Assembly (NCBI RefSeq): GCF_041346925.1
Contig: NZ_CP166840.1
Location: forward strand, 2,785,001-2,849,000
Origin: Agaribacterium sp. ZY112
Lineage (GTDB): Bacteria > Pseudomonadota > Gammaproteobacteria > Pseudomonadales > Cellvibrionaceae
DNA: 64,000 bases
Reading direction: 5' to 3'
The notes under the pieces were generated by a model that had not been told where the DNA came from, did no database searches, and was given only the letters and a program-made list of their open reading frames with translations. Below, piece by piece: positions 3,280 to 22,273 of this stretch; position 1 is the stretch's first letter, and every line of letters starts with the position of its first letter. The position numbers and the translations under genes are program-made.

Positions 3280-3415
3280 GGTTTGATAGGCCAAGTCAAT
3301 CACGTCTTATGTTTTTTTAAGTGATTGATTTTATTGACTAATTTGGGGATGTTTAGGGCTTGTTAGGGTTTGCCGTATGCTAGTGACGGTGGCTTTAGCA
3401 TTGCTTGAGCGCCTT

Positions 3416-3454
3416 CTTTGCATTTTGCAAATCATGATTCGCATTTTGGCAGAG
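3416..3454 (-). promoter_or_regulatory. paired enhancer-like dyads, candidate SypG-type binding sites
   Basis: Two adjacent copies of one element occur here: CTTTGCATTTTGCAAATC at 3416-3433 and GATTCGCATTTTGGCAGAG at 3436-3454. The core TGCA-TTT-TGCA is a dyad. Nearly the same word stands upstream of the sypA-like gene (20587-20605) and the LruC operon (6659-6721). The site lies between the kinase gene and the glycosyltransferase gene, at a typical enhancer distance from the 3264-3279 promoter. Confidence 0.6.
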
Positions 3455-4407: not shown

Positions 4408-4434
4408 AAGTGAGGCTCCCTTCTCGAGATAGGG

Positions 4435-6326: not shown

Positions 6327-6420
6327 TCCACACCTTGGCATCTCTGTGACTGTCGTTCAGTTCATGCTTGCTTTTTATGAGCAAATATAACCGAATAAAT
6401 AGGGCCGATACCTTTATAAA

Positions 6421-6658: not shown

Positions 6659-6721
6659 TTATTCGCATTATGAAAATGTAACCGTTTAATTTTCATAATG
6701 GTTATTCCCAAAATGCAAATC
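6659..6721 (+). promoter_or_regulatory. enhancer-like sites and 12-bp inverted repeat upstream of the LruC operon
   Basis: ATTCGCATTATGAAAATG at 6661-6678 matches the 3436 and 20587 elements at most positions. A half site GATTTGCATTTTGG lies on the other strand at 6708-6721. Overlapping them is a perfect inverted repeat, CATTATGAAAAT (6666-6677) and ATTTTCATAATG (6689-6700), with an 11-base centre. The rest of the 6327-6821 gap holds the NO-operon promoter, short ATTACATTTC repeats near 6500 and the sigma54 promoter at 6772. Confidence 0.55.
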
Positions 6722-6771
6722 ACTAAGTTGTTATTTTACTTTTATGTAATTAATTCAATAGCTTATAGGTT

Positions 6772-6787
6772 TGGCTTGTCTCGTGCA
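6772..6787 (+). promoter_or_regulatory. sigma54 promoter of the LruC-lipoprotein-galE operon
   Basis: TGGCTTGTCTCGTGCA has GG at 6773-6774 and GC at 6785-6786 with exact -24/-12 spacing. The start of transcription would be near 6798, leaving a leader of about 24 bases that includes the GGAGAG ribosome site. The enhancer-like sites lie about 75-140 bases upstream. Confidence 0.68.
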
Positions 6788-6821: not shown

Positions 6822-8897
6822 ATGCGTTTGTTGGCTTTTATTACGGTTTCATTTTGGGGCTTTGCTCTGTTTACCGATGTTGGTGCGGAGTCTTTTGATG
6901 AATGCCCAAGTAGTGCTTATTTAATTCAAGGCTCTAATGCTCAGATGTATGGTGTTAATCTGGCAACGGGTTTCTATCAAGGCTTATCTGATGATTTAGG
7001 AACGACATCTAAGATCAATGCCATTGGTTTTAATATTCATGATCAATACATTTATGGCTATGGTAGTGGTTGGCGTTCACTCATTCGAATTGATCGACAT
7101 TTCCAAGCCAGTCCGATTACTACGACTAATACACCCGACACTAATTTTTATGTTGGTGATGTCTCCTTAACTCATAACCGGTACTACGCTTATCGCCCAG
7201 GTGCGAGTTATGGCTTGTATTATGTTGATTTAGACCCCAATGCGGATGCTTATTTGCGTTATCAGAGGGTGGTTGACGGTCATACTCTCAATCTGGCTAT
7301 TTACGATTTTGCCTTTCATCCGAGTCAAAATGCCCTCTATTCGGTTGATCGTAATGGTTTTCTGACATCGATTGACCCTGACACAGGCGACTTCACGCGC
7401 ATTAACAATGTCGGTGAGTCGGGCACCTTTGGCGCGGTTTATTTTGATTCCTCCGAATACTTCTACATCAGCAGGAACTCGGATGGCTATATTTTTCGCA
7501 TTGACCTTAAAGCGGAATCACCCTCAGCTGAATTTTTTGCATTTGGACCTCATTCAAACAATAACGATGGTGCCAGATGCGCGATATCAGACATCATCTC
7601 AGAGGAGGACAGCGTAGATTTTGGTAATGCTCCTGCCAGTTATGGTTCTGATATTGAATCTAACGGTGCGCGCCATGAAATCAGTGACCACTTATATCTC
7701 GGCTCCAGTATTGGTGGTGAAGATGATGGTATTGAGTTTGTCACTAATATCGAACCGGGTTTGAATGCTGTTGTTGTAGCGGATGTAGAAGGTGCTGGGG
7801 TCATTAATGCATGGGCCGATTGGAACCAAAATGGCACCTTTGAAGAGTCAGAATTATTTGTCGATGACAAGCCCGCAAGCAGTGGCAGTAACTTTATTCT
7901 TATCGAGGTTCCAAGCAATGCTATAGCCGGTGAAACATGGGTTCGATTTCGTTATTCCAGCTTGGCAAATATTGGAGCTAACGGCGGTGTATCAGATGGG
8001 GAAGTAGAAGACTCCCTCATTGATGTTGTCGAGTCTGGCAGCTCTGTTATGCATTACCCCTCGAAGAAAGGTTTTGTCACCGTAGCCTTTGAAGATAACT
8101 GGCCTGAGCTAGGTGATTACGATATGAATGATGTCGTCATGGCTCTTCAAACAAGCCAGTACAGTAATAGCGAGCAAGATGTAATACGTTATGAAATTCA
8201 TGGTCAGTTATTAGCGCTAGGAGGAGGCTACCATAACGGTTTTGCTATTCAGTTAGACGGTATCAGTAGTGCATCCATTGATCAGTCTGGGTCTGAATTA
8301 TTTATTAATGGCATTAAGACGGAGTTTGTTTCTCTTGAGGATAACGCCCCGTTTGAAGATGCGGTCTTTATTATTTCTAATGACCTAAAAAGCGCTGTTT
8401 CAGTAGAGAGTGGTTGTACTTTCTACCGTACTGAGATGGGCTGCGAGCAGCTAGAAACGAATACTGAATTCAGCTTTGATTTACTTGTTACTTTGCAAGT
8501 ACCTATCGATATATCTCTTGCCCCGAAAGGTGTTTTAAATCCCTTTATTTTTGCAAGCCCCGGTCTTTATCACGGTGATACTTTTGAAACCGCACCTGGG
8601 CGTTCTTTAGAGATTCACCTTAAGAATAAAGGTGTTTCTGCTCGCTTTAATACCGATTTTTGGGGCTTATCTGAAGATCGATCTAACCAAAGTGGTCTGA
8701 GTTTTTTGACCGAAAACGGCTTGCCTTGGGCTTTAGAAATACCAGGGCTTTGGTCACATCCGGTTGAGCGACGAGACTTATTGCAGGCTTACCCCAAGTT
8801 TCAGCAGTTTGTTGAATCCAATGCTGCTGCTTCAAAGGATTGGTATCTAAATACAAGCAGCAATAGCGAACACATTATTGATAATAACTTGGAGTAG
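6822..8897 (+). CDS. secreted LruC/GEVED-domain protein, candidate matrix protein
   Basis: This 691-residue protein has a signal peptide (cleavage probably after DVGA, residue 22 or so). An N-terminal repeat region rich in YGYG and DNTG-like turns resembles DUF6923 beta-propellers (about 25-255). A GEVED domain follows (about 270-405, ending DGEVEDS). The C-terminal LruC domain (about 415-660) carries the hallmark WPELGDYDMNDVV. Such proteins are surface or secreted, and their biochemistry is unknown. The GGAGAG site six bases upstream supports this start. It is the first gene of a sigma54-driven operon, so the inference is a matrix or adhesion protein co-expressed with the polysaccharide, comparable in role to the SypG-controlled Bmp proteins of V. 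fischeri, though not a recognised homologue. Confidence 0.85.
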   Translation: MRLLAFITVSFWGFALFTDVGAESFDECPSSAYLIQGSNAQMYGVNLATGFYQGLSDDLGTTSKINAIGFNIHDQYIYGYGSGWRSLIRIDRHFQASPITTTNTPDTNFYVGDVSLTHNRYYAYRPGASYGLYYVDLDPNADAYLRYQRVVDGHTLNLAIYDFAFHPSQNALYSVDRNGFLTSIDPDTGDFTRINNVGESGTFGAVYFDSSEYFYISRNSDGYIFRIDLKAESPSAEFFAFGPHSNNNDGARCAISDIISEEDSVDFGNAPASYGSDIESNGARHEISDHLYLGSSIGGEDDGIEFVTNIEPGLNAVVVADVEGAGVINAWADWNQNGTFEESELFVDDKPASSGSNFILIEVPSNAIAGETWVRFRYSSLANIGANGGVSDGEVEDSLIDVVESGSSVMHYPSKKGFVTVAFEDNWPELGDYDMNDVVMALQTSQYSNSEQDVIRYEIHGQLLALGGGYHNGFAIQLDGISSASIDQSGSELFINGIKTEFVSLEDNAPFEDAVFIISNDLKSAVSVESGCTFYRTEMGCEQLETNTEFSFDLLVTLQVPIDISLAPKGVLNPFIFASPGLYHGDTFETAPGRSLEIHLKNKGVSARFNTDFWGLSEDRSNQSGLSFLTENGLPWALEIPGLWSHPVERRDLLQAYPKFQQFVESNAAASKDWYLNTSSNSEHIIDNNLE

Positions 8898-8901
8898 AGT
8901 G

Positions 8902-9522
8902 ATGACTAGCTTATTTAAACAGACATTATTAAGTTCTTTATGTTGCTCGTTAATTGCGTGTGGTAGTGGCGGCGGTGGTGAAAGTTCTGATGACTCCGTT
9001 GAACAATCGGCAAATATGAGCTCACGTTCCAACCAAGAGGCTGGGCTAAATACACAAGAACCTGACCTTATTATACCTGAGCCAAATGTCTTACCGAGTG
9101 TGCCAGCAAGTGCTGTTCCTAGTATTACTCCTAGCCCTAGCGCAGTTCCTAGTGTCATACCAACAGTAGCTCCAAGCGCTACGCCAAGCCCCGTGCTGAC
9201 TATCCGCACTAGTGAGTTAAAGTCCAGCGATAGCTTCCTTTTTGAAAACTTTGAGCGTGTAAGCATTCGCTTTGAGCTCTCTAATTCTGAGTCCATGCCG
9301 GATCGAATGAGTGTTTGTTTACCTGAGTCGCCCAGTAATGATTCAGAGACTAACTGTTTGTACTCGGGCCCTATACAGATGACTAATCAAAACTTGAGTT
9401 TATTTGTTCCGAATGAATTCGATGATTTGGAGTTGGTGACTTGGACATTTACTCCAGAGTTGAGCCGTAAGGTTTATCTCTGGAGTCGTTCTAATGGCCC
9501 TACTTGGTATGTCACTTTATAG
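8902..9522 (+). CDS. lipoprotein with Pro/Ser-rich stalk, unknown function
   Basis: This 206-residue protein has a lipoprotein signal (LCCSLIAC, then a Gly-rich run), so it is probably anchored by Cys20 in the outer membrane. Residues about 50-100 are a Pro/Ser/Val/Thr stalk with repeated VPS and PSP units. The C-terminal 105 residues are a small beta-rich domain with two Cys (CLPES and TNCLYSG) that might pair. ATG 8902 is preferred over 8878 because GGAG stands ten bases upstream and the signal peptide starts there. It lies 4 bases after the LruC gene and 10 before galE, so one operon. No family is recognised. Confidence 0.75.
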
Positions 9523-9532
9523 GAGAACACTG

Positions 9533-10543
9533 ATGAATATTTTAGTAACAGGTGGTGCGGGATACATTGGTAGCCATACCTTGGTGGAGCTTCTTAATGA
9601 TGGTCACAAGGTTGTTGTGGTTGATAACTACTCTAACTCATCGGAAGAGCCTTTAAGGAGAGTTGAAAAAATAACTGAAAAAAAGATTACTCGTTACGAA
9701 GTGGACATTCTAGATAAGCAGGCCTTATATAATGTATTTCAACAACATAAATTTGATGCGGTGATTCACTTTGCTGGTTTAAAAGCTGTGGGTGAATCCG
9801 CTGAGTTGCCTCTGAAATATTATATAAATAATATTTCGGGCACATTAACCTTGTGTGAAGTAATGGGTGAAATGAACGTTAAAAGACTGGTTTTTAGCTC
9901 CTCTGCAACGGTTTATGGTGAGCCTCAGCGTGTTCCTATTGATGAGTCTTTTCCTACTTCTGCAACCAATCCCTATGGCCGATCAAAACTTACAGTTGAA
10001 GAAATATTACACGACTTAGGTGCAAGCGATGATAGCTGGAATATTACACTGTTGCGTTATTTTAACCCTGTAGGTGCTCATCCGAGTGGTTTAATAGGGG
10101 AGGACCCAAAAGGCACACCTAATAACTTGATGCCTTATATTTCACAGGTGGCTGTTGGCATAAGAGCACAGCTTGGGGTTTTTGGCGATGACTACAATAC
10201 AAAAGATGGAACGGGTGTGAGGGATTATATTCATGTGGTTGATTTAGCACGAGGGCATGTGAGTGCCATTAATAATAAAAAACATAAGCACGGCGTTTTG
10301 ACACTTAATCTTGGTACCGGCAATGGTTATTCTGTATTGGATATGATTAATACCTTTGAACGTATTAGTGGTAATAAAATACCCTATAAAATCATTGCTA
10401 GAAGGCCTGGAGATGTCGCTGAATGTTATTCAGACCCTAGCAGGGCTTATATTCAAATTGGTTGGAAGGCCAAGCATGGGCTTGATGATATGATTTCCGA
10501 TGGTTGGCGTTGGCAGAGCCAAAATCCACGAGGTTATTGTTAG
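9533..10543 (+). CDS. galE: UDP-glucose 4-epimerase
   Basis: GalE interconverts UDP-glucose and UDP-galactose in the cytosol and supplies donors for polysaccharide. The 336-residue length is usual. The NAD-binding [10 protein letters not shown] sits at the N-terminus, the catalytic Ser-Tyr-Lys set is in SSSATVYG and NPYGRSK, and [12 protein letters not shown] is the substrate loop. The ATG at 9533 has AGGAG eight bases upstream; the longer frame from 9494 would overlap the lipoprotein gene. It closes the sigma54-controlled operon, suggesting that UDP-galactose supply is raised together with matrix production. It may equally serve growth on galactose from agar. Confidence 0.95.
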
Positions 10544-10558
10544 GGCCTGTTAGCCACT

Positions 10559-10606
10559 AAACAGCAGTGGCATAGCGCATATAGCTAATGCCACTGCTGT
10601 TTTTTT
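10559..10606 (+). terminator. Rho-independent terminator after galE, overlapping the sypG-like 3' end
   Basis: AAACAGCAGTGGCAT (10559-10573) pairs with ATGCCACTGCTGTTT, followed by a run of T to 10606. The right arm and T-run lie within the last codons and stop (10585) of the convergent sigma54 activator gene. Confidence 0.9.
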
Positions 10607-12093
10607 CGATAGATTGTCGAGGGGCTAACTTCCAATAACGCGGCAGCTTTGGGAATGTTCCCATCGCAGTGTTGAATGGTTTGTTCGATGGTCTCTCGTT
10701 CAACTTCAGCTAACGGGCGGACGATGAAGTGGGGTTTGTCATGCTCGTTTACCTTAAGGTCAGTCTGTATGTTTTGCTGCTTATTGAGAGCTTGATGGTT
10801 TTCTAGATGATACTCACCTGCTGAATCTGACTCTTGTGATGAAGCTGCGTACTCGGCTGTGGAGCTTGGCAATGGCACAGCCTGATGCTTGCTTGGCTTG
10901 AGCGCTGCTGTGTTGCTGATAGGGCTTAATGGTGGGGGTAGGTGGTTTAGCTCAACGACTTCTGCGTTATTAAGTACCACGACATTACGAATAATGTTTT
11001 GTAATTGACGTACGTTGCCAGGCCAGGCGTAGGTATTCATAAGCTGTTTTACTTCTTGCCCTAGGCGCTTAAACTTTTTTCCATCCTCTTTGGCGTAAAG
11101 TTTGAGAAAGTGTTGGGCTATTTTGACAATGTCTCCATTTCGTTCACGTAAAGCCGGTAGGTGTATTGGCACGACATTGAGGCGGTAGTAGAGGTCTTCT
11201 CTAAACGTACCTTCGGCCACTTGTGTAAGAGGGTCTCTATTGGTTGCACAGATAAAACGCACATTGAGTTTTTCTTCTTTGCTACCTCCGACCTTTTTAA
11301 TCACGCCGGATTGAATAAAGCGCAGTAGTTTGGTTTGCAGATCAAGGTCCATCTCGCCTATTTCATCTAAAAACAGTGTGCCGTTATTCGCAAGTGAAGC
11401 GGCCCCCTTACGGTCACTGGAGGCACCGGTAAAGGCGCCTTTTACATGGCCGAAAATTTCGCTTTCCATTAGATCTTTGGGAATGGCGCCACAATTAAGG
11501 GCGATAAACGCTTCACTCGAGCGCGCACTTTGTTTGTGAATGGCTTCGGCGCAAACCTCTTTACCTGTACCGCTCTCACCGGTGATAAATATGGTGGCTG
11601 AGCTCGATGATGCGGCTTCGATGGTCTTATAGACCGCTTGCATGGGCATGGATGAGCCGATAAAGCCATGGAAGTGATCGCGGTTAAAGTTTTCACTTAA
11701 ATCTGCGACTAGGGATTTAAGTTTGATGTTTTCTAAGCTGTTGTTAACCGTTGTTAATAGGCGCGCAGCGTCGATGGGTTTTTGTAGGAAGTCTTGGGCA
11801 CCTAAGCGCATGAGGTCGACGGCTATATCAACACTGCCGTAAGCGGTAATGATGATAACAACACAGTCATTGTCTATTTTCTTTATGTGGCTGAGTACGT
11901 CTTCGCCTGGCATATCCGGTAGTTTTAAATCCAATAAGACTAGCTGAGGTTGATAGCGCTCGGCCATTTCAATAGCCTCTAAACCACAGGTGGCTGTTAA
12001 TAAGGCTATGTCTTCTTTACTTAAGTACTGTTTATATACTTCAGCTAAGGAGGGCGAGTCTTCAACTAAAAGTACACTGGGCGTTTTACTCAC
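10585..12093 (-). CDS. sypG: sigma54-dependent response regulator (SypG-like)
   Basis: This 502-residue NtrC-type activator has REC at 5-120 (phospho-Asp 55), an AAA+ domain with Walker A GESGTGKE (172-179), the sigma54-contact loop GAFTGA (219-224) and ESEIFG, and a C-terminal Fis-type helix-turn-helix (PKAAALLEVSPSTIYR). A low-complexity insert of about 75 residues separates the AAA+ and DNA-binding parts. It is the last gene of the syp-like operon, 15 bases after the SypE-like gene. SypG of V. fischeri has this architecture and activates syp promoters with sigma54. The three -24/-12 promoters found in this window are its likely targets, including its own operon. Confidence 0.9.
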   Translation of the reverse strand: MSKTPSVLLVEDSPSLAEVYKQYLSKEDIALLTATCGLEAIEMAERYQPQLVLLDLKLPDMPGEDVLSHIKKIDNDCVVIIITAYGSVDIAVDLMRLGAQDFLQKPIDAARLLTTVNNSLENIKLKSLVADLSENFNRDHFHGFIGSSMPMQAVYKTIEAASSSSATIFITGESGTGKEVCAEAIHKQSARSSEAFIALNCGAIPKDLMESEIFGHVKGAFTGASSDRKGAASLANNGTLFLDEIGEMDLDLQTKLLRFIQSGVIKKVGGSKEEKLNVRFICATNRDPLTQVAEGTFREDLYYRLNVVPIHLPALRERNGDIVKIAQHFLKLYAKEDGKKFKRLGQEVKQLMNTYAWPGNVRQLQNIIRNVVVLNNAEVVELNHLPPPLSPISNTAALKPSKHQAVPLPSSTAEYAASSQESDSAGEYHLENHQALNKQQNIQTDLKVNEHDKPHFIVRPLAEVERETIEQTIQHCDGNIPKAAALLEVSPSTIYRKKQQWH

Positions 12094-12108
12094 GCTGTTA
12101 TATCCATG

Positions 12109-13782
12109 TCAGAGCATTGGTTCCAAAAGGACCAGAAGCGTATCGTCAACAAACACATTGTTTCTTGAACGCTTAAGGTGACTAAATGCGGAATCCAGTG
12201 AGCGTTTGATGGGCTGGTCTAAGGAGAGCCTTAGATTAAGCAGTATATTGCTGTACTTATGCTTTTCTTCCGCGTTAGCTTGAGTATAGTCCAAGTCACT
12301 TTTAGTTCCGGTGGATTGGCCATCGCTGTGAGCGTGATTTGCTCCGCCGCATGGTTCTTCAGTAAATAGCCCGTCAGTAAATAGGCCTAAGCGTTCCCCT
12401 TTTTCTAGTTGGTATTCAGCCGATTTGTAGCTTATATCCGGTAGTAGCCCAGGTAGCATGCCTTGGCTTTCAATGGTTATAGCTCGACTGTTTGAGATAA
12501 TGATTGGGGCTGGGTGGCCCGCACACGCTACTTCGATTAGGCCCTCGGCTTGCAGTTTGATCACGCAGCAAGTGCACAGAGATTTGGAAAGAAGCTCGTC
12601 GTTGTAAATGGCATTAGACAGTAGATTGAGAAACTCATACGGAGCGCAATCTGTTGCGCACAGTAAGCCCCGTATATAACCTAAGTAAGCATGAGAAAAA
12701 AACTTAGCTGCGATATCGTGCCCCATCAAATCTGCAACAACAAGTACGGTCTCTCTTTTGTTCTGCTTGACAATAAGTAGGTCTCCACCACCACTTTGAG
12801 GGCCATCTGAACAGGCAGCTAAAGACCAGTTTTCAATTTTTTCTGGTAGCTTAGGGATCAAGCTTTGAGTAATCGACTCGGTGCGAAGCAGGTCGTTTGT
12901 GGCTTTAAGCTGTTTATGCCGCATCAATGTCCTGTTAATGCGAACAATAAGGTCTTTTTTGGATATTGGCTTTGTTAAATAATCATCAATGCCTAGACGC
13001 GATAACACGGCGTTTTCGTCAGCTTTACTATCTGATGAAATAAAAATAAAGGCACAATCTCTAGTGTTCTTATGCTCTAACACACTTTGCCTGAATACTA
13101 TGCCGTTAGCGTTTGGCATGTGAATATCTGAAATAATCAGATCAATGGTTTGTTTATCGAGTACAAGCAGGGCATCTTCCACTGACTCGGCTGCAAAGGT
13201 TGTAAAGTCTTGCTTCAAATACGCCATGTGCAGTTGTAGCAGGGCTCTGTCATCGTCTACTAATAATATTGAGGCCTTTTCTTTTGAGTTTTTAATACTC
13301 CATTCGAGCTTATATCCCTGCTTATACTCTAAGTACTCTGATGGTTTCTTTGATTTTGAACTGTGGGGCGGGCAGGAGGGCGCGTTTTTTTGCTCACAAT
13401 AGCTTATTTTGTCGACAAGTTGGTAAACAATGCTGGCGCCGCGGCCACCACTTCGATCAAGATTAAAAAGAGGATCTTCGTCTTTACTATCTTGAAGTTT
13501 TTTTAGCCAAGCCTTTAGTTCGCTGATACTCTGCTCATGATATTCTTTTCCTATAAATAGAATAAGCTTAGATCCCGACAAAGACAGTGTTATACAGAGT
13601 CGTTTAAGATCCTGCTGGTGTTCAACAAAATTAGAGGCGACTTCGGAGAACGATAGGGATATAGCATTAATCAAACTATGTTCTATGTTCATCTTTTTTA
13701 AGACGGCGGCAAGCATGGATCGGTGTTTACTGATTGCTTCATATGAAGCAGATTCGTTTACCTCGTAAAGAACGTGTCGCAT
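12109..13782 (-). CDS. sypE: RsbW-like kinase / REC / PP2C phosphatase partner-switch regulator (SypE-like)
   Basis: This 557-residue protein has the rare order seen in SypE. It starts with an RsbW-type HATPase (about 1-130; N box SEVASN with Glu47 and Asn51, G box GGRGAS at 112-117). A REC domain follows (about 172-290, Asp219 in SDIHMP). The SpoIIE/PP2C phosphatase is at about 315-557 (metal Asp334 in GGGDLL, Asp351 in ADLMGHD, Asp470 in TDG). Both enzyme halves look intact, so it may phosphorylate and dephosphorylate the STAS protein coded by the first gene of the operon, switched by its central REC. GGGGTG precedes the ATG. It lies 3 bases after the sypF-like gene. Confidence 0.9.
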   Translation of the reverse strand: MRHVLYEVNESASYEAISKHRSMLAAVLKKMNIEHSLINAISLSFSEVASNFVEHQQDLKRLCITLSLSGSKLILFIGKEYHEQSISELKAWLKKLQDSKDEDPLFNLDRSGGRGASIVYQLVDKISYCEQKNAPSCPPHSSKSKKPSEYLEYKQGYKLEWSIKNSKEKASILLVDDDRALLQLHMAYLKQDFTTFAAESVEDALLVLDKQTIDLIISDIHMPNANGIVFRQSVLEHKNTRDCAFIFISSDSKADENAVLSRLGIDDYLTKPISKKDLIVRINRTLMRHKQLKATNDLLRTESITQSLIPKLPEKIENWSLAACSDGPQSGGGDLLIVKQNKRETVLVVADLMGHDIAAKFFSHAYLGYIRGLLCATDCAPYEFLNLLSNAIYNDELLSKSLCTCCVIKLQAEGLIEVACAGHPAPIIISNSRAITIESQGMLPGLLPDISYKSAEYQLEKGERLGLFTDGLFTEEPCGGANHAHSDGQSTGTKSDLDYTQANAEEKHKYSNILLNLRLSLDQPIKRSLDSAFSHLKRSRNNVFVDDTLLVLLEPML

Positions 13783-13785
13783 GGG

Positions 13786-16386
13786 CTACACCCCATTTTT
13801 AACGATCTCACCAAGCTCTTTTAGTGAAGATTCATAATGACTATTAAGTAGGGGCTGTAAACTTTCTATCTCAGTGGTGTCGTCGTCTCTAACGGCCTCT
13901 TCGATTTTTCCTGCAATAATACTAAGTGTTGTTGCGCCAAAACTGCCAGCGCTGCTTTTTAAGGTATGAGCTTGCTCGGCTAAGGCTTGCCAGTCCTTAC
14001 TGGCAAATAACTGGTTCATCAGCGGTAATCTGGCTTTAGTCTCACTTAGAAATATATCAATAATGCTTGGAAGAACCTCTGTCGAAGTGTCTTTTTCAAG
14101 TTGTCTTATAATTTTTAAATCAATGCTTTTTTCTAGCGTATCTTCTACTTCATGTGTTGGAGTATTGTTCGCTTCATCGATTTTTTCTTCTGGATTATCA
14201 TTTTTAGCTTTTTTAATCCAGGTCGTTATTTTTTCTCTGAATAACTTGATATCGATAGGCTTTTGTAAAAAGTCATCCATGCCTGAATTAAAGCATCTGA
14301 TTTTATCGTCAGAATAGGCATTGGCAGTTAAGGCGATAATGGGGGTAGTATGATTGTAAATACTGTCTTTTCGAATGATGGAGGTTGCCGTGATACCGTC
14401 CATCCGTGGCATTGCCATATCCATAAGGATAATGTCGTAGGCTCGTTCGTTGGCTCTGCTAACGGCTTCTTCACCGTTGTTTGCGATATCTACATCAGCA
14501 TCCATGTTTTTCAATATGCTGTTGATAACAGCCTGATTAGAAGGGCTGTCTTCGGCTATTAAAATAGAGGCATTGAGCGAATGGTTTGTCCTGTCTTGGA
14601 CTTGGGGGTTGGACTTACTTGTCCATTGCTTGATTATTTCTTCTTGATTTGGGTTAAAGGTGTTGAGTAAAGGTTTGTTTTCAATGCTAAAGATTAACTG
14701 CTTCAGCAACGAGCATATACGAAAAGGCTTACGTAATATCGTATCAAAGCCATGTGAATAAGTAAGCTTCGATCGCCCTATGCCATCGTTGGCAATTAGG
14801 GCTACCTTAAGGTGTTTTGCTTTATTGTGTAATTCGTTGTCGCTTGTGCTTTCTTTTGAGTTGGCTGCAGGGTAATCACATACGGTATCCGTGTCATAAA
14901 GGATGGCATCGTAGCTGCTATCAACTGTTTCTGGTGTTATTAATTCGTGATCTAAGCGACAGTTAAAGAATGTGAGTTGCTTATTTAAGGTTCTGTGAAG
15001 ATGCTTATTGCTTGAAATTAACAGTAGTTTTCTTGTTGCTCCGCTAAACGCAGGGAAGCTTACTTCTTTTCTTCCTTCAAGAGGAAGTGTTACACAGAAG
15101 TGGCTACCTTGCCCTAGTGTCGATTGCACTTGGATCTCTCCGCCCATTAAGTGGGTGAGTTGACGGCAGATAGAAAGGCCTAAACCTGTACCGCCTTGTG
15201 TGCGAGTATTACCGCTATCAATTTGGGTGAATTCATCAAAAATACTGGTGACATCTTGTTCACTCATGCCTATACCGGAGTCATTGATGCTTATCGATAG
15301 GCTTTGATCGTATTGGATTTCGAGTTCAACACAGCCGGCCTCAGTAAATTTGAGCGCATTTGAAATCAAATTAGTTATGATTTGTCGTATTCGGGTTTCA
15401 TCTCCGTAAACTTCTGTGGGGGTATGGCGATGAATAACAGCAGCCACATCAACAGGTTTATCGATCACTTGGCTGCTTAGTAGCTCGCATGTTTCGTCGA
15501 TGACATCAATAATGTTGAACCAGCTTTCATTGAGCTCTAGCTTGCCAGCGTTAATTTTGCTGAAGTCTAAGATATCACCAATAAGAGACAGTAATATATT
15601 GCCTCCATTAAGGCTTAGGTTAACGAGTTCTCTTTGGTCATCAGTCAGGTCGGATTCAAGCAGCAGTGAGTTTGTCGCAATAATGGAGTTAAGTGGAGTC
15701 CTGATTTCGTGGCTCATGGTGGCTAGGAACTGGCTTTTGGCTATGCTTTCGCGTTCAGCTTCTTGCCGTTCTTTTCGCAGGCGCCGTTCACCTTCATAAG
15801 CACTTTTTAGTTTTTCATTGATTTTCTTTAATTGGGAGTGGCTCTGATTAACAGATTCCTTTAAATGCTGGTTGGCATCTTGTAGTTTTATGTTTTCTTT
15901 TTTAGTAGATTTTTCGAAGTAAAAATCAATGACCCTTGCCCAGTAAATGGCAGAGGCTTCTAATAAAGTGGAGAGCAGTAACTCATCATCCCAAGGCTTA
16001 CTGATGTACCTAAAGATACTTGCATGGTGCAGCACATTTAGGGTGTTACTTATGTCTGTGTAACCGGTAAGAATTACTTTTAAGGTCTCTGGCCAGCGCT
16101 CATCGATCTTGATGAGTAATTCGTCACCAGACATGCTCGGCATTCTCATATCAGAGACAATAATGGCAATATTTTCATCTTCCATAATCTGTAATGCTGT
16201 TTCACCATTAGGAGCACAAAAGATGTTAAAGCCATGTCCTCGCAGTGTTCGTTTCAGGGCTTTTAGATTAAATTCCTCATCATCAACCAATAGCAATCCA
16301 AGCTTGGATGGGATTTCTGTTCCTGAAAACATTACATTGTCCATATCGGGATAACCTTGGTCTAAGAGTAGACTAAATTTCATCAT
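13786..16386 (-). CDS. sypF: REC-HisKA-HATPase-REC-REC-HPt hybrid kinase (SypF-like)
   Basis: This 866-residue soluble protein has an N-terminal REC (28-150; Asp79), a coiled coil, HisKA (SHEIRTPLN, His226) and HATPase (NLISNALKF, GTGLGLS). A degenerate REC follows (about 470-590, acid pair replaced by Ser-Ser-Asn), then an intact REC (about 617-735, Asp656) and an HPt domain (AHTLKSSAGS, His807). SypF of V. fischeri is a hybrid kinase whose HPt passes phosphate to SypG and SypE. Here no membrane segment is visible and a REC stands where a sensor would be. That REC resembles the one in the HD-GYP protein of the NO operon (SDMRMPxMSG, KPWD). The start is uncertain; ATG 16344 is an alternative. 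Confidence 0.87.
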   Translation of the reverse strand: MMKFSLLLDQGYPDMDNVMFSGTEIPSKLGLLLVDDEEFNLKALKRTLRGHGFNIFCAPNGETALQIMEDENIAIIVSDMRMPSMSGDELLIKIDERWPETLKVILTGYTDISNTLNVLHHASIFRYISKPWDDELLLSTLLEASAIYWARVIDFYFEKSTKKENIKLQDANQHLKESVNQSHSQLKKINEKLKSAYEGERRLRKERQEAERESIAKSQFLATMSHEIRTPLNSIIATNSLLLESDLTDDQRELVNLSLNGGNILLSLIGDILDFSKINAGKLELNESWFNIIDVIDETCELLSSQVIDKPVDVAAVIHRHTPTEVYGDETRIRQIITNLISNALKFTEAGCVELEIQYDQSLSISINDSGIGMSEQDVTSIFDEFTQIDSGNTRTQGGTGLGLSICRQLTHLMGGEIQVQSTLGQGSHFCVTLPLEGRKEVSFPAFSGATRKLLLISSNKHLHRTLNKQLTFFNCRLDHELITPETVDSSYDAILYDTDTVCDYPAANSKESTSDNELHNKAKHLKVALIANDGIGRSKLTYSHGFDTILRKPFRICSLLKQLIFSIENKPLLNTFNPNQEEIIKQWTSKSNPQVQDRTNHSLNASILIAEDSPSNQAVINSILKNMDADVDIANNGEEAVSRANERAYDIILMDMAMPRMDGITATSIIRKDSIYNHTTPIIALTANAYSDDKIRCFNSGMDDFLQKPIDIKLFREKITTWIKKAKNDNPEEKIDEANNTPTHEVEDTLEKSIDLKIIRQLEKDTSTEVLPSIIDIFLSETKARLPLMNQLFASKDWQALAEQAHTLKSSAGSFGATTLSIIAGKIEEAVRDDDTTEIESLQPLLNSHYESSLKELGEIVKNGV

Positions 16387-16388
16387 GA

Positions 16389-17126
16389 TCAGTCATCTAT
16401 CGAGAAGAATGCGGTGTGGTCTAGCCACTGGTTTAGTTGCTTTGTATATGTACTGAAGCGAGTAGGAAAAAGGCGCCTGAACTTATCAATTTGGCGCTTT
16501 AATTCATCTTTCAAGCTTGGGTTCATCTTATCGTTTACTACTAATCCAAGTAGGTTTACACCTTGTGCTTCAAGCCTTTTATACGCTTGCTTTAACAGTG
16601 ATTCGGTGGTTATATTTGAGAGGGTGATTAAGATACTGGCTCCACATGCCTTGGCGATGTATTCAGCAGGAAGTTCAAGCTGATCATTATTTAATACAGC
16701 TGGGCTATCAATTAGGATGTAATCAAACTTGGGGGCCCAGGACTGAAAAACGTCTTCTAGCGCGCCTGGTTGTCTTAAGTTTGCTAGCTGGGTCTTACCA
16801 CCGTGTAAGGTCATGCCTGTGAATATGCACTGCTCACCAATAGGCGAAATCAAGTCCGGTGCACCTATATCAGAGTGTGTATCAGAGCGCCGTAGAGGCT
16901 TTGATATATCGGCATTAAGCACATGCTCAACTGCAGGGCTGTTTGCATTGAGATCAATCAGTAATACTGAATAGCCAGAAAGTAATAAGCGCTGGGCGAT
17001 GGAGTGGGTAATGGTGCTGACCCCTTCGTTCGCCGTGGCGGATGTAAAGGATATGCAGCGCTGCGTTTGGGCCTGGATGCAGGAGACAATGTTTTCTATT
17101 TCAGCGCTATACGGAGCAATAATCAT
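16389..17126 (-). CDS. sypD: CpsD/BY-kinase-like chain-length ATPase (SypD-like)
   Basis: This 245-residue cytosolic P-loop protein has the BY-kinase layout: a Walker A region (SATANEGVSTIT, about 29-40), Walker A' (VLLIDLNANSP) and Walker B (YILIDSPAV). The Lys normally before Ser-Thr in Walker A is Val here. No C-terminal tyrosine cluster is present, only one Tyr in the last 40 residues. It may therefore bind nucleotide in a modified way or act mainly as a structural or regulatory partner of the export machinery. It lies between the export gene and the hybrid kinase, as sypD does between sypC and the regulators, with gaps of 9 and 2 bases. Confidence 0.82.
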   Translation of the reverse strand: MIIAPYSAEIENIVSCIQAQTQRCISFTSATANEGVSTITHSIAQRLLLSGYSVLLIDLNANSPAVEHVLNADISKPLRRSDTHSDIGAPDLISPIGEQCIFTGMTLHGGKTQLANLRQPGALEDVFQSWAPKFDYILIDSPAVLNNDQLELPAEYIAKACGASILITLSNITTESLLKQAYKRLEAQGVNLLGLVVNDKMNPSLKDELKRQIDKFRRLFPTRFSTYTKQLNQWLDHTAFFSIDD

Positions 17127-17135
17127 TTTATGCTC

Positions 17136-19265
17136 CTATAGGCCTAGTAGGACGGCAAGCGATACCATCCTAAATGTGTCGCCTAAAATTTTCCTAGCCT
17201 TGCTTCCTTTACTTTCCCTGTGGTTCGGTACGTAGATGGTGTCGCCTTCACGTATAACGGGAAGAGAGTTAAAGTCACCGGTTTTACCAAATTTTAGGAG
17301 GTCAAACTTGCGGGCTTGGTCTTCGCAACAGGATACATTGACAACCAATATACGTTTGACATGAGCGTTTGAGGTAGGGCCTCCAGACTCGGCAAGCAGA
17401 TCCAAAATAGTCATGTTATCTGAGAAGGTGTAGCGCCCCGGTTTATTGACTTCACCTAGTACACGAACTGTTTTTTCTTTTGGTTTTTCTGTCCATTCTC
17501 TTGTTTTCTCTGGGATATAAATTGAGTCTCCGGTTTTAATATCAGGCAGTAATGATTCATCACCGGTTTCAAAGTATTGGGCTAAATTGAGCTTGGAAAC
17601 CTTAGAATAACTTTGATTCCTGTGGGTGATGCGTACGTTATGTATGTCCGCGTCTTGAGTAGGGCCGTCAGCGGCAGCCAATAAGTCTAGGAAGTTCATA
17701 TCATTGGTGAACATATAGCGGCCAGGTGCGCCGACTTGACCAAAAATATAGATCGACTTATCGGATGATTGGCGAACCCACTGAGCCTTATTATCAGAGG
17801 GGTCTTGAGGTAGGTCGTGTACACGTATTGTTGAACCTGCAGAAATAACGGGTAGGGCGCTATCAGCTTTTCCCTGTTTAATAAATTCATCCAAGTTAAA
17901 GACAATCGCTTTGAATTGGCCTTTTTTATCAACACTAATAACTTCAATATTACTTGTATCTGCGCGTGAAACCGGACCACCTACATGAGCGAGAGCATCA
18001 AGTAAGTTCATTTCATCTGACCACTCTATGCGTCCTGGGCGTACGACCTCACCAATGATTCGAATGGCTCTATCAGGTGCTATTTTCAGCCACGACTTCT
18101 CATTCATATCTGTTTTTTCAGGAATGAAGATGGCATCACCTGGTTGGATTGCAGGCATAGAGGAATTACTTAAACCCTCTGTAAATGCTGCTAAGTCAAA
18201 TCGCTGCACGCTGCCATCAATTTTTAACACTCTTATTTGTCGAGTTTCCGCATAGCGAGTAGGGCCGCCAGCATTGGCCAAGATATCTAAAAACGTCACG
18301 CCTTTTGCACTTTCGTAGGCTCCTGGTTCGAAGACTTCGCCCATGACATAGACAGTACTGGCATTTGATTTAACCGCCTCTTCTTGCTTTGGGATAAAAA
18401 TAGTAGAGCCGACATTGATAACAGGAAGTAGTTCACTATTGCCTGTATCAAGGTAATTTTTTAGATCAAAAAGTGTGGGCTCACCATCAGATATAACGCG
18501 AATTCGTTCAACGCCTGCATAGCGTGTGACTCCTCCTGCGCGCATAAGAAGGTCGACGATCGTCATCGAGTCTCTATAGGTAAAACTACCTGGGCTATTG
18601 ACCTCACCAAAGACTTTGATTGCATTCTTGGCATTAGATGCATCGCCGGAATCGGCTATTTTTGCAGGGTCAAATTCAACTTCGACATTACCAATTTTGG
18701 GCGAAGCAGGAACAAACAATATATCGAGAGAACGCAGCTTGGGTAGTTCTGATGTGTCTCCAGAATCTAAATACGCTTTATAGTTAAAGGTTGTTGCTGT
18801 AGTTGCTCTACGTAGTTGCATTTTGTCTAGTTGGGCTCCAGAGCGCATGCCACCAGCAAGCGTTAATATTGACTGTATACTCGAATCAGCAGGGGCATGA
18901 ATTTCACCTGGAGAGACTACATAACCTAGAACAGTGATTAAAATTTTTCGTTCTATGACATAAACATTGAGCGCCGATAGATCTTGGAAAACAGGTGATA
19001 GAGCATTATAGGCGGCATCGGTTAAACTACGTTCTGCTAAACCACTTACTTTTAAAGCCCCCACTTCTGGTAGGTAAATATACCCTCGACGGTCAACAGT
19101 AAAAGACCTGTTTAGACTTTCTTCGCCTGGTAAGGATATTTTTATAACATCGCCTACCTGCACTGTATAAGCTGTTTGTTGATTGCTGCTTTGGCTCTGG
19201 CTATAGGCAAACGAGTGGTTGGCAAAGAAAACAATAAGGGTGAATATAATAAGTGGTTTAAACAC
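17136..19265 (-). CDS. sypC: polysaccharide export protein with six SLBB repeats (SypC-like)
   Basis: This 709-residue exported protein has a signal peptide (about 1-20), a Poly_export (Wza-type) domain (YTVQVGDVIKIS, about 32-115) and then six SLBB repeats, each with a G-x-V-x-x-PG turn and LLxxAGGP. The last repeat ends near residue 690, followed by a short hydrophobic tail (MVSLAVLLGL). Wza has about 380 residues and fewer SLBB domains, so this protein is nearly twice as long. It should form the outer-membrane or periplasmic channel for the polysaccharide. It is 3 bases after the sypB-like gene. No lipobox is seen, unlike Wza. Confidence 0.88.
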   Translation of the reverse strand: MFKPLIIFTLIVFFANHSFAYSQSQSSNQQTAYTVQVGDVIKISLPGEESLNRSFTVDRRGYIYLPEVGALKVSGLAERSLTDAAYNALSPVFQDLSALNVYVIERKILITVLGYVVSPGEIHAPADSSIQSILTLAGGMRSGAQLDKMQLRRATTATTFNYKAYLDSGDTSELPKLRSLDILFVPASPKIGNVEVEFDPAKIADSGDASNAKNAIKVFGEVNSPGSFTYRDSMTIVDLLMRAGGVTRYAGVERIRVISDGEPTLFDLKNYLDTGNSELLPVINVGSTIFIPKQEEAVKSNASTVYVMGEVFEPGAYESAKGVTFLDILANAGGPTRYAETRQIRVLKIDGSVQRFDLAAFTEGLSNSSMPAIQPGDAIFIPEKTDMNEKSWLKIAPDRAIRIIGEVVRPGRIEWSDEMNLLDALAHVGGPVSRADTSNIEVISVDKKGQFKAIVFNLDEFIKQGKADSALPVISAGSTIRVHDLPQDPSDNKAQWVRQSSDKSIYIFGQVGAPGRYMFTNDMNFLDLLAAADGPTQDADIHNVRITHRNQSYSKVSKLNLAQYFETGDESLLPDIKTGDSIYIPEKTREWTEKPKEKTVRVLGEVNKPGRYTFSDNMTILDLLAESGGPTSNAHVKRILVVNVSCCEDQARKFDLLKFGKTGDFNSLPVIREGDTIYVPNHRESKGSKARKILGDTFRMVSLAVLLGL

Positions 19266-19268
19266 GGT

Positions 19269-20039
19269 CTAGCCCTCAATAAGATAGATTCGAACGTTTC
19301 TATTTATGAGTTGAGTCGCTTCAGATTGCCCTTTATAGCTGGGTGATTGCTCACCTGAAGCAAGTATGTCTATTGCCTTAGGGTTAATACCTGCAGTAAC
19401 AAGTAAATCTTGGACACTGCGAGCTCGCTCATAAGACAGCGATAAGTTATGTTGTTCATGGCCGCTCTCATCAGTATGTCCAACAATCAGAATTCGGTAC
19501 TGGCTCAGCTTTAGAAGCTGTTTAGCTGCATGATTTAAATTGTCTTTGTACTTTTTATTAACTTCGCTTGAGTTAATAGCAAATTGGTTGTCGCTATTTA
19601 ATATGTTTAATAAGCTAGCTATATTACCTTCTTTATTGTCTATCGGTGGTTTACAACTAAAGTCATTAATGACTTCTTTTAACTTTATCTCCAGTGTTGT
19701 TAATGCTAATCGCTGTTTGATAATTGAACTCTCTGCACTACCATACAGTTGTCCAGAAAGCTCACGGATTATCCGCTTCTCTAGCTTTTGTGCATCGTCT
19801 ACAGCGGCGGGAAAGCAGTATGTTGCACCTTGTAATTCTAATAAGGCCAACTGATTTTTTAGTAAGCTATAGTCAAATCTAAGGCCATGCTTTGACGTTA
19901 TTTGTTGTTGATGCTCAACGCTAATTAGTTGGTCTGTATGATATTCAGCAAAACCGCCTTCACCTTCTTCAGGCCAAGAAGTACACGCCAGTAATAAGCT
20001 GCTTGAGCTTAGAGTCAAAAGAATGTGTAAGGGATTCAT
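19269..20039 (-). CDS. sypB: OmpA-family lipoprotein (SypB-like)
   Basis: This 256-residue protein has a lipoprotein signal (SSLLLAC, Cys19). A helical middle part (about 60-165) precedes a C-terminal OmpA domain (about 155-256) with the peptidoglycan-binding pattern GHTDESG and LSYERARSVQDLL, ending NRNVRIYLIEG. It likely anchors the export complex to the cell wall. Its ATG overlaps the sypA-like stop by four bases (ATGA), so the two are coupled. OmpA-like SypB holds the same place in the V. fischeri operon. Confidence 0.88.
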   Translation of the reverse strand: MNPLHILLTLSSSSLLLACTSWPEEGEGGFAEYHTDQLISVEHQQQITSKHGLRFDYSLLKNQLALLELQGATYCFPAAVDDAQKLEKRIIRELSGQLYGSAESSIIKQRLALTTLEIKLKEVINDFSCKPPIDNKEGNIASLLNILNSDNQFAINSSEVNKKYKDNLNHAAKQLLKLSQYRILIVGHTDESGHEQHNLSLSYERARSVQDLLVTAGINPKAIDILASGEQSPSYKGQSEATQLINRNVRIYLIEG

Positions 20040-20395
20040 GACTGAGCTTCCATTTGGCTATTTCCAAGGTTTTGAGCCCACTCAACATGGATAGCTTTAT
20101 CAACTCGTAATAAGGTAATAAGCTCTTTAGGTTGGCCGTGAACATTCTTTAGTTTTACTCCTCCATTATTTTCTAGCATCCTTTTATAAAGAAAAACGAT
20201 GGCGCCAATGCCCGACGAGTCGATAAAACTAACTTGGGACAAATCCAATTCGAGCTCTTTACCTACGTGATCACTGACGAGTTGCTCAAGCTCTTTTCGG
20301 ATTTCTTTACAGCCTCCAGCATCAAATTCACCTGATAGCTTAATATGTACGTAGCGTTGAGCACTTGTTTCTGGTTTTAAAATGCAAATATTCAT
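20036..20395 (-). CDS. sypA: STAS-domain anti-sigma-antagonist-like protein (SypA-like)
   Basis: This 119-residue single STAS domain resembles RsbV/SpoIIAA. The motif SFIDSSGIGAI places the phospho-acceptor serine at 60 or 61, and KLSGEFD is the usual first strand. ATG 20395 is chosen over 20467 because GAGGTGGGA stands six bases upstream and the STAS fold starts there. It opens the operon behind a sigma54 promoter. By analogy with V. fischeri, its phosphorylation state is set by the SypE-like kinase/phosphatase, and the dephosphorylated form promotes biofilm. No sigma factor or RsbW-only partner lies nearby. Confidence 0.9.
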   Translation of the reverse strand: MNICILKPETSAQRYVHIKLSGEFDAGGCKEIRKELEQLVSDHVGKELELDLSQVSFIDSSGIGAIVFLYKRMLENNGGVKLKNVHGQPKELITLLRVDKAIHVEWAQNLGNSQMEAQS

Positions 20396-20496: not shown

Positions 20497-20512
20497 TGCT
20501 AGAACTGAGCCA
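20497..20512 (-). promoter_or_regulatory. sigma54 promoter of the syp-like operon
   Basis: On the minus strand TGGCTCAGTTCTAGCA has GG and GC at exact -24/-12 spacing. Transcription would start near 20486, about 90 bases before the sypA-like ATG. A short stem (GATACC with GGTATC) lies in the leader just after the start. Confidence 0.68.
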
Positions 20513-20586
20513 TTGTATGAAAAGTCAATTAAAACAGTGGCTTATGGGTTTTTATTTGGTTTTTTTCCAGCGTGCGTTTGAAATAT

Positions 20587-20647
20587 GATTCGCATTTTGC
20601 AAATCGCAAAGGCCCAGCGTTTCTGGGGCATGCAAAGTGCAAACGGT
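20587..20647 (-). promoter_or_regulatory. enhancer-like dyads upstream of the syp-like operon
   Basis: GATTCGCATTTTGCAAATC (20587-20605) is the clearest copy of the dyad shared by three promoters. A weaker second copy is CATGCAAAGTGCAAACGG at 20629-20646. They lie about 100-160 bases upstream of the predicted start near 20486. In the rest of the gap to 20948 I see nothing beyond a short GTCGCGG inverted repeat near 20910-20940. Confidence 0.6.
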
Positions 20648-20948: not shown

Positions 20949-21374
20949 CTAAATACTAGGATCATTAGGATGGGCTTGGCCTTTTCCTGTTTCTAAGTAT
21001 TGCTTTAAGCTAACGGTAAAAAAGAAACCCCATTTAGCATTGCAGTGTTTATAGAAATCATCTGCTTCTTGCCAGCCGTGATGCGCAAAATCGAGACAAG
21101 AGCCACGCTCGTGTTCGGTGATTGAAAAAATAAACTCTCCTTTGTCAGCCCAGGGGCCAGAGATGCACTGCCAGATAATTTCTTGACCAGGAATAGATGA
21201 AAGGACCTGCATTTGCACTTGGTGTTCATCATTGGGGCCAAAAAAGATGCTCACTTGCTCTGCATTAATGTTTGTTTTAGACCACCATTTAGATAGGCCT
21301 TTTTCGCTGCTGATGGCTTGGAAGAGTTCATCTGTTGACGCTTCAATCACAATTTTATGAAGTATACTGTGCAT
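20949..21374 (-). CDS. SRPBCC (AHSA1-like) domain protein
   Basis: This 141-residue START/SRPBCC fold begins HKIVIEASTDELFQAISSEKGLSKWW and has the typical late strand FSITEHERGSCLDFAHHGW. Such proteins bind small hydrophobic ligands in a helix-grip pocket; the ligand here is unknown. ATG 21374 has AGGAAAG eight bases upstream and is preferred over 21398. Its promoter region carries the same 11-base word (ATAGTACACCA on the minus strand) as the arsR promoter at 22276, which suggests control by that ArsR repressor although it is a separate transcript. Confidence 0.8.
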   Translation of the reverse strand: MHSILHKIVIEASTDELFQAISSEKGLSKWWSKTNINAEQVSIFFGPNDEHQVQMQVLSSIPGQEIIWQCISGPWADKGEFIFSITEHERGSCLDFAHHGWQEADDFYKHCNAKWGFFFTVSLKQYLETGKGQAHPNDPSI

Positions 21375-21390
21375 GTTGTCTTTCCTGTTT

Positions 21391-21408
21391 GTACACAAGT
21401 TGGTGTAC
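21391..21408 (-). promoter_or_regulatory. candidate ArsR operator (GTACAC-N6-GTGTAC)
   Basis: A perfect 6-bp inverted repeat with a 6-base spacer lies 17 bases upstream of ATG 21374. The flanking TGGTGTACTAT also occurs at 22275-22285 directly upstream of the arsR-type gene. Confidence 0.5.
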
Positions 21409-21476
21409 TATTGGTTTAAATAAAAAGACCTATAAAGCCTTTTTATTTGATTACTCTCTTAGCTGTTTTCTTCGTG

Positions 21477-21938
21477 CTAGGGCCTGTTAAGTAACTTTTC
21501 TAGGCCGTTAAAGCTACTTGTCCAACCAAAGCGGTGACCGTTTAGCGCTGCCTGATTTGGCAGTTTTTCATGTTTTAGTTTTAATAGGGTTTGTTGCTGC
21601 TGAGTGCTTAATGTTATTTCAACTACGGTAAGTGCGTTTTGGCCCTTGCTACCACTGCAAGATTGGTCTTCTAACATCCATGTGAAAATTAATTGTTCTG
21701 GCCTGTTAACCTCAAGGTACTCACCAAAGTGTTTAATTGTATTATTGTCTGGGGAGTTGAGGGTAATACTGTATTTTCCTTGAGGCCGACAATCTATTTC
21801 TGATTCAACAACATGAAAACCTTCAGGGCCAAACCACTTTGCTATTAATTTTGCTTGAGTCCAAGCGTCAAAGACTTTCTCTATACTGGCATTAAATAAG
21901 CGTTCTATTTCCAGTGTTTCAGTGATGGGCTCGGCCAC
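21477..21938 (-). CDS. SRPBCC (AHSA1-like) domain protein of the ArsR operon
   Basis: This 153-residue protein has the AHSA1 signature IERLFNASIEKVFDAWTQAKLIAKWFGPEGF and the later GEYLEVNRPEQLIFTW and FGWTSSFNGLEKLL. It lies five bases after the ArsR gene, the common arsR-SRPBCC pair in which the SRPBCC protein may bind the inducer or its product. The ligand is unknown. Confidence 0.88.
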   Translation of the reverse strand: MAEPITETLEIERLFNASIEKVFDAWTQAKLIAKWFGPEGFHVVESEIDCRPQGKYSITLNSPDNNTIKHFGEYLEVNRPEQLIFTWMLEDQSCSGSKGQNALTVVEITLSTQQQQTLLKLKHEKLPNQAALNGHRFGWTSSFNGLEKLLNRP

Positions 21939-21943
21939 GCTCT

Positions 21944-22273
21944 TTACTCTTGTTCGTTTAAAAAATCATCTAGGGCATCTAGTTTCTTATTCCAGAATAC
22001 CTTGTAGAAACGCATCCACTGTGAAGCATGATCTAGAGGCTCTGGGTTGAACTTGCAGTAGTGTGTTCTTCCATGAATGCTTCGTTGCAGTAACTTGGCA
22101 TTCTCAAGCACTTTGACATGTTTGGTTATAGCCGATTTTGTCATATCAAAAGGTTCAGCCAGTTCTGCTACTGGCATCTCTTTATCACCTAAGCGCTTTA
22201 ACATAGCCCTTCGAGTTGGGTCGGATAAAGCCGAGAAGATGATTGTCAGTTGTTCATCTTTATAGTTAACCAT
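21944..22273 (-). CDS. ArsR-family winged-helix repressor
   Basis: This 109-residue protein starts with the typical FSALSDPTRRAMLKRLGD and has the recognition helix in MTKSAITKHVKVLENAKLL and the wing in RSIHGRTHYCKFN. It lacks the ArsR metal Cys motif, as expected for the SRPBCC-linked subgroup. No ribosome site is visible, and a promoter at 22281-22310 would start the transcript at or next to the ATG, so the mRNA may be leaderless. The shared GGTGTACTAT word overlaps the -10, consistent with autorepression. Confidence 0.9.
   Translation of the reverse strand: MVNYKDEQLTIIFSALSDPTRRAMLKRLGDKEMPVAELAEPFDMTKSAITKHVKVLENAKLLQRSIHGRTHYCKFNPEPLDHASQWMRFYKVFWNKKLDALDDFLNEQE

Follow-up and report, generated by a model that had tools for sequence, protein, structure and literature searches.

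A syp-type polysaccharide locus with genes for nitric oxide (NO) perception lying inside it was found in the marine bacterium Agaribacterium sp. ZY112. Our window, the whole stretch of 64,000 nucleotides that was analysed, corresponds to C1:2785001-2849000 of the single-contig 4.28 Mb genome (positions with the prefix C1 are those of this contig, all others those of the window). The locus occupies C1:2773334-2805395 and has homologues of all the genes from sypA to sypR. By their homology, seven consecutive minus-strand genes at 10585-20395 make up the half for control and export in a locus related to syp of Vibrio fischeri, here in another marine bacterium. On the same strand a three-gene NO operon (3472-6341) lies between sypG and sypHI. 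From these features it seems rather probable that this exopolysaccharide locus is driven by SypG and sigma-54 and that NO gates it from the embedded H-NOX operon, via the adjoining kinase and SypF. This suggests that the control of this biofilm polysaccharide by NO is not confined to squid symbionts. The occurrence of syp loci outside Vibrio is already known; what is new is the NO operon within the locus, together with the altered SypF and SypE.

The syp locus and its embedded operon

The V. fischeri syp locus consists of 18 genes in four operons dependent on SypG and sigma-54. In the ZY112 genome the order is A-B-C-D-F-E-G, then a plus-strand block of LruC, lipoprotein and galE genes, the NO operon, and HI-J-K-L-glmS-M-N-O-P-Q-R. 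Unlike in V. fischeri, F stands before E, H and I are fused, glmS is added, and the locus is split between G and HI by two foreign blocks. As reference we used the Aliivibrio fischeri locus L032, a stretch of 17 open reading frames (ORFs) that ends in sypL. In a comparison of the two loci, as distinct from whole proteomes, reciprocal best hits were obtained for twelve genes (A-G, H, I, J, K, and L), and M-R are represented by homologues.

The initial annotation had read the seven genes as SypA-SypG with E and F swapped and with gaps of 15 bases or less, and had considered chance assembly unlikely. All seven ORFs are in place, each protein is the reciprocal best hit of its L032 counterpart, the gaps measure -4, 3, 9, 2, 3, and 15 bp, and the exchanged order A-B-C-D-F-E-G stands. 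This is a syp-type control and export operon and no chance assembly. The description as a control and export unit is correct, but it covers just half of the locus, and biosynthetic genes follow. These were overlooked, as were the H-NOX operon, the syp-linked LruC gene, the lack of a membrane sensor in SypF, and that of the kinase G1 motif in SypE, mostly because of the window edge. The sequence left of the window rules out a regulatory operon devoid of biosynthetic genes. As partners we rejected the other polysaccharide loci that the genome has (C1 about 2.41-2.43 Mb and C1 2.53 Mb): their genes match syp weakly, and neither of the enhancer-plus-promoter patterns described below was found there.

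The first gene, sypA (20036-20395, ATG at 20395, ORF open to 20467), codes a Pfam STAS protein with 44% identity to V. fischeri SypA. Its Ser60 aligns with the Ser56 phosphosite of V. fischeri, and the serine is kept in all 22 aligned SypA rows. The product of sypB (19269-20039) is an OmpA-family protein (Pfam OmpA, E 8.6e-17; 38%). SypC (17136-19265) is a polysaccharide export protein with Poly_export and repeated SLBB domains, 60% identical to V. fischeri SypC and 73-74% to that of Agaribacterium haliotis, whose sequence is that of genome G003, of the same genus as ZY112. SypD (16389-17126; 31%) is a weak CpsD/ParA-type ATPase, below the cut-off of TIGR01007 (E 4.8e-15) and below those of Pfam too. 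After sypF (13786-16386) and sypE (12109-13782), the operon ends with sypG (10585-12093) for a sigma-54 response regulator of the structure REC-Sigma54_activat-HTH_8, 56% identical to V. fischeri SypG; it is LuxO-like, with 630 bits to the LuxO model, below the cut-off of 800.

In the biosynthetic half, also on the minus strand, sypHI (739-3228, the likely ATG at 3228, ORF open to 3303) codes two GT4 glycosyltransferase units fused together, each half being the reciprocal best hit of one V. fischeri protein, SypH or SypI. The 5′ part of sypJ (1-737) reaches the window edge, and its remainder lies to the left with K, L, glmS, M, N, O, P, Q, and R (C1:2773334-2785737). SypJ, SypK, and SypL were matched to V. 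fischeri as above, the glmS product between L and M reaches 733 bits to TIGR01135, and M-R were identified by matches to other syp loci. As L032 reaches no further than sypL, the letters O-R were assigned from family annotation and from the V. fischeri order. In A. haliotis the genes J-K-L-glmS-M-N-O-P-Q-R lie upstream of sypA, whereas in ZY112 the biosynthetic genes are downstream of sypG, so the syp order is permuted within one genus.

Is the F-before-E order peculiar to this strain? A SypE-alignment scan gave 80 loci, and the order was read in the 31 of them (L029-L059) that match SypE beyond the receiver domain; L060-L108, with little match beyond it, were dropped. Seven further loci have A-B-C-D-F-E-G, including A. 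haliotis, Marinagarivorans algicola, and Motilimonas eburnea, so the order is not peculiar to the window. It was also read in Photobacterium lipolyticum with one extra ORF, in a metagenome-assembled genome (MAG) labelled Pseudomonas synxantha with a weak SypB match, and in G090 and G092 of the Marinagarivorans genus. Six Vibrionaceae loci (L029, with its F split, L030, L031, L032, L035, and L037) have A-B-C-D-E-F-G. In the other loci one or more of the seven genes were absent from the stretch examined, or the series was interrupted. Liu et al. (2022, PMC8941931) recorded scv/syp loci in 148 species, 28 genera (Vibrio included), and eight orders, naming Agaribacterium and Marinagarivorans; their A. 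haliotis and M. algicola loci are of the same family as ours, and the fusion of H and I (scvF/scvG) was already reported there for A. haliotis. The main text of that paper makes no mention of H-NOX, HnoX, nitric oxide, or LruC.

The NO operon consists of three minus-strand genes. The first (4989-6341) codes a NosR-family response regulator with Pfam REC and HD-GYP domains (NF053512, 417.1 bits, cut-off 400), the second (4435-4989) a haem NO-binding (H-NOX) protein (PF07700, E 1.3e-39), and the third (3472-4407), adjacent on the same strand, a signalling histidine kinase (HATPase_c, E 2.3e-25) in which no transmembrane segment was found. The H-NOX protein has the haem-ligand histidine and the YxSxR motif and is the sole H-NOX match in the genome. 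The regulator passes its family cut-off but has HR in place of the catalytic, metal-binding HD of HD-GYP phosphodiesterases, as do the proteins of G002 and G009. The pair is kept in three Marinagarivorans-genus proteins and replaced by other letters in L120, L128, and L133. A plain phosphodiesterase role of the window protein is unlikely because of the loss of this motif.

SypC was found in five of 144 family genomes, belonging to two of 32 genera, and in four of 369 genomes drawn from the class, ZY112 counted. Four of the five SypC-positive family genomes have the NO operon at the syp locus, three of them inside it and one at its end. In G090 and G092 its genes run on the opposite strand and separate sypM from sypL. 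In M. algicola (G013) it is directly beside sypM, and since the contig ends after the kinase gene this is adjacency only. The fifth genome, A. haliotis, has its H-NOX gene elsewhere, with a longer kinase. Among the matches listed from the open-licence literature (titles and beginnings of abstracts), no description of H-NOX within a syp locus was found.

Altered SypF and SypE and candidate promoters

SypF had been annotated as a hybrid kinase with HPt, and it is one: a NosR-type REC (about 29-150) is followed by HisKA, HATPase, REC, and HPt, and the protein is the V. fischeri SypF counterpart with 39% identity over 251 aa. The V. fischeri architecture, however, did not hold. V. fischeri SypF has two transmembrane segments and HAMP, whereas the window protein has no transmembrane segment by hydropathy scan (made with rows L030 and L052 left out) and begins with an extra receiver in place of the membrane sensor. 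This receiver is closest to that of A. haliotis SypF (75%, 214 bits). Among the receivers compared, the next nearest are encoded beside H-NOX genes (35-46%, 92-113 bits); three more matches at 72-79 bits are also in H-NOX loci, and the following one stands at 65 bits.

SypE combines an RsbW-like HATPase (HATPase_c_2, 28.8 bits, cut-off 27.4), REC, and the SpoIIE-type PP2C phosphatase domain, with 32% identity to V. fischeri SypE. Both the kinase and phosphatase domains are present, but the former lacks its G1 motif (Asp-x-Gly). The N-box Glu and Asn, the G2 box, and the phosphatase Asp residues are kept; this Asn is equivalent to Asn52 of V. fischeri SypE, which is required for inhibition (PMC3610818). 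The G1 motif is missing from nine of 30 aligned rows (seven database proteins besides the window and A. haliotis), so its absence is unlikely to be a sequencing slip. Twenty rows keep the G1 Asp, three of these lacking the Gly (Pseudoalteromonas, Glaciecola, and G509), and Motilimonas has HDG.

Candidate sigma-54 promoters and LuxO/SypG-type enhancer-like sites were detected at the operons corresponding to those of V. fischeri (A, H/I, and M). By pattern match, TGGCTCAGTTCTAGCA is the candidate promoter of sypA (20497-20512, minus strand), with motif matches to the enhancers at 20586-20642. By sequence match, CGGCACCGCTCTTGCT is that of sypHI (3264-3279, minus strand), with sites at 3414-3451 including one perfect TTGCAWWWTGCAA at 3418. 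Ahead of glmS-sypM a candidate promoter (C1:2781446-2781461) and an enhancer-like site (C1:2781533) were found. The V. fischeri operons start at sypA, sypI, sypM, and sypP (PMC10804989). The fourth start may have its counterparts in two enhancer-like sites that fall within sypO and in an imperfect sigma-54 match ahead of sypP.

The published enhancers are TTGCAWWWTGCAA for LuxO and TTCTCANNNTGMDWN for SypG; SypG acts at qrr1 via sites overlapping those of LuxO, while syp promoters answer to SypG and not to LuxO (PMC10162802). The candidate sites at sypA, sypHI, and glmS-sypM are fitted better by the LuxO form TTGCAWWWTGCAA than by the published SypG form TTCTCANNNTGMDWN. A sigma-54-type match is present in 12 of 19 sypA upstream regions (once within a called ORF), and a LuxO-form site with at most one mismatch in 11 of the 19, V. 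fischeri having only 2-mismatch sites. Of the mononucleotide shuffles of seven regions, 1-2% contained such a site. An extended motif, derived from the same sites that it then counted, gave at ≤3 mismatches 11 sites (some overlapping) in 81 kb, against 0, 0, 3, 1, 1, and 0 in six Markov-1 controls; nine of them are in the syp region and two at 51-54 kb of the window. At ≤4 mismatches the excess vanished, with 18 sites compared to 12-24 across ten controls. A looser single pattern, too loose alone, had 117 matches against 44 in its control.

Proposed nitric oxide gating and its alternatives

In V. fischeri, HnoX inhibits the kinase HahK, which signals via SypF to SypG; unphosphorylated SypE inhibits through SypA; NO lowers syp-dependent biofilm via HnoX, and NO from the squid acts as a specificity factor (PMC12369376). 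The window has the same pairing of H-NOX with an adjoining histidine kinase, the tie to syp having been made in V. fischeri by genetics. In the V. fischeri genome examined, however, hnoX is on a contig other than that of syp, and here H-NOX is inside the locus. The two H-NOX proteins are 25% identical, the kinase ORF has 575 aa there and 311 aa here, and in the window a NosR-like regulator precedes H-NOX, unlike HnoX-HahK. The operon also resembles the H-NOX/kinase/cyclic di-GMP pathway with HnoD of Shewanella oneidensis and V. cholerae in having H-NOX, an adjacent kinase, and an apparently inactive response regulator (PMC8738867). HnoD, though, has an inactive diguanylate cyclase domain (PMC8738867) and the window regulator has HD-GYP.

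We propose the following scheme. Phosphorylated SypG would activate the sigma-54 promoters of sypA, sypHI, glmS-sypM, and perhaps the LruC gene. SypC, SypB, and SypD would export the polymer, probably one with amino sugars, and SypA, switched by SypE, would gate its production post-transcriptionally. NO-bound H-NOX would restrain the adjacent kinase, and the kinase, via the NosR-like regulator and a SypF relay, would set the phosphorylation of SypG and SypE. NO would therefore reduce polysaccharide output as in V. fischeri, with the difference that it would act through genes inside the locus.

Several observations weigh against such gating, for which the evidence is sequence alone. Nine family genomes lacking SypC (L120, L122, L124, L127-L130, L133, and L137) have H-NOX beside a similar kinase. 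H-NOX genes occur in eight of 19 genomes with syp-type genes, G090 and G092 among the eight, and in all six of the others H-NOX is on another contig (which in a draft genome does not give the distance). The NO operon itself is preceded only by a weak sigma-54-like match (-236) and by sites shared with the LruC gap. The two genome-wide enhancer-plus-promoter patterns, both designed on the sites they found, gave one match each (sypA and glmS-sypM), as did each reversed control. The window's own NosR-like receiver is among those less similar to the SypF receiver (38%), and the receiver comparison is biased because the loci had been chosen for H-NOX. A. haliotis has the NosR-type SypF receiver without this NO operon, and M. 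algicola has the operon with no recognisable N-terminal SypF receiver; the two do not co-vary, which counts against a simple relay.

How did the NO operon come to syp? The closest full operon is that of G002, of the same genus (56, 58, and 62% identity). A single clade of the four syp-linked operons was rejected for the regulator (AU p 8.25e-05) and for H-NOX (AU p 0.0048), in approximately unbiased (AU) tests that covered two of the three proteins (the kinase outside), were run after the trees had been seen, and had long branches flagged in the HD-GYP set. The operon may have been added to syp on two occasions; alternatively, an old linkage underwent rearrangement and other lineages lost syp. 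The SypC and SypG trees do not resolve one from several acquisitions of syp in the family.

A single ancient linkage is quite possible, without being probable, and is compatible with NO gating: the operon would have been in the syp locus of the family ancestor, with syp later lost from most genera and the operon left in G002, G009, and others. The AU test left monophyly of SypC in the five family members standing (p 0.232), their grouping by SypG was weak (57/73), and the operon trees join congeners as vertical descent would. However, so narrow a distribution of SypC, in five genomes and two genera, speaks against it, as do the position and orientation of the operon, which differ between the two genera.

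Less likely than NO gating is that the NO operon is a functionally untied neighbour in a locus run by SypF and SypG, acting on general cyclic di-GMP or another pathway and placed there by chance or as a side effect of an insertion hot spot. The nine SypC-less genomes, the lack of a clear SypG-type promoter before the operon, the rearranged syp loci, and the integron-like cassette array which this locus abuts are all consistent with this. Against it stand the placement of the operon at a separate position in each of two genera, along with the rejection of a single clade for two of the three proteins, the feeding of H-NOX signalling into syp in V. fischeri (PMC12369376), and the lost HD motif, which makes a plain phosphodiesterase role unlikely.

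Within the preferred reading of NO gating, a fuller scenario is more doubtful still and is offered tentatively. The H-NOX/kinase/NosR operon may have been recruited into the locus at least twice; in Agaribacterium a NosR-type receiver, phosphorylated by the H-NOX-controlled kinase, would have replaced the membrane sensor of SypF, and SypE would act on SypA as a partner switch that is phosphatase-only or is driven externally. As for a generic exopolysaccharide locus, SypC does pass the XrtA/PEP-CTERM export model (TIGR03027, 206 bits, cut-off 180) and SypD is below all cut-offs, but the twelve reciprocal best hits to one V. fischeri locus and the shared three-domain SypE make it extremely improbable, and we rejected it.

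If marine bacteria of another order carry an NO sensor inside the syp locus, NO gating would be wider than the squid symbiosis and testable in simple cultures. The relatives with a receiver-type SypF and a SypE devoid of the kinase motif would serve as natural variants.

The LruC block and neighbouring sequences

Between sypG and the NO operon, three genes lie on the plus strand. The first (6822-8897) codes an LruC-domain protein (TIGR04456, E 1.7e-69), 41% identical to the LruC protein beside V. fischeri sypA. Directly after it, a gene for a predicted lipoprotein with a leader ending in SLIAC (8902-9522, ORF open from 8878) is followed by galE for UDP-glucose 4-epimerase (9494-10543; TIGR01179, 452 bits, cut-off 262). 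In the gap from which the NosR-like and LruC genes diverge, the stretch 6659-6787 has enhancer-like candidates at 6659-6722 with 3-4 mismatches and a weak sigma-54-like match at 6772-6787, all on the plus strand. Enhancer-like sites precede LruC in G090 too.

As in V. fischeri, where an LruC-protein gene and then a lipoprotein gene adjoin the locus, G090 has an LruC gene near sypG (43%), and a predicted lipoprotein gene is 3′ of LruC in the window, L032, and G090. The lipoproteins of L032 and G090 match each other (30%), and that of the window gave no BLAST match to them. No LruC gene was found in the examined stretches of M. algicola, G092, and A. haliotis, and a search of LruC/Vibrio literature titles gave no paper tying LruC to syp. 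LruC may be a surface or matrix protein, and its link to syp extends over three genera, that of V. fischeri included.

Upstream of sypA, on the same strand, Pfam identified two AHSA1-family genes and an ArsR-type regulator (20949-22273). At the other side, left of sypR, the integron-like cassette array (C1:2753001-2773300; L114, L115) abuts the 3′ end of the locus. It has many small same-strand ORFs, attC-like repeats ending in GGCGTTA, and repeat families of up to 12 copies; two 316-aa minus-strand ORFs in it have an identical 300-nt stretch. The second polysaccharide locus at C1:2413059-2432890 (L116, L117) has an initiating transferase and an export protein of its own.

Among the other syp-type loci, the Vibrio sp. 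Of7-15 and Pseudoalteromonas loci (L053, L054, L056, and L057) have fused sypQ-R, with N-O-P-QR upstream of sypA; SypC of L053, L054, and L056 forms a distinct tree branch (L057 is outside the tree). MAGs labelled as alphaproteobacteria have a SypE-like gene directly followed by its own STAS gene (L040, 9878-11940; L042, 5641-7492; L049, 9011-11057), and the L042 pair adjoins a syp C/D/G cluster with another sypA. A plasmid search gave two partial SypE-like matches, in Plesiomonas plasmids.

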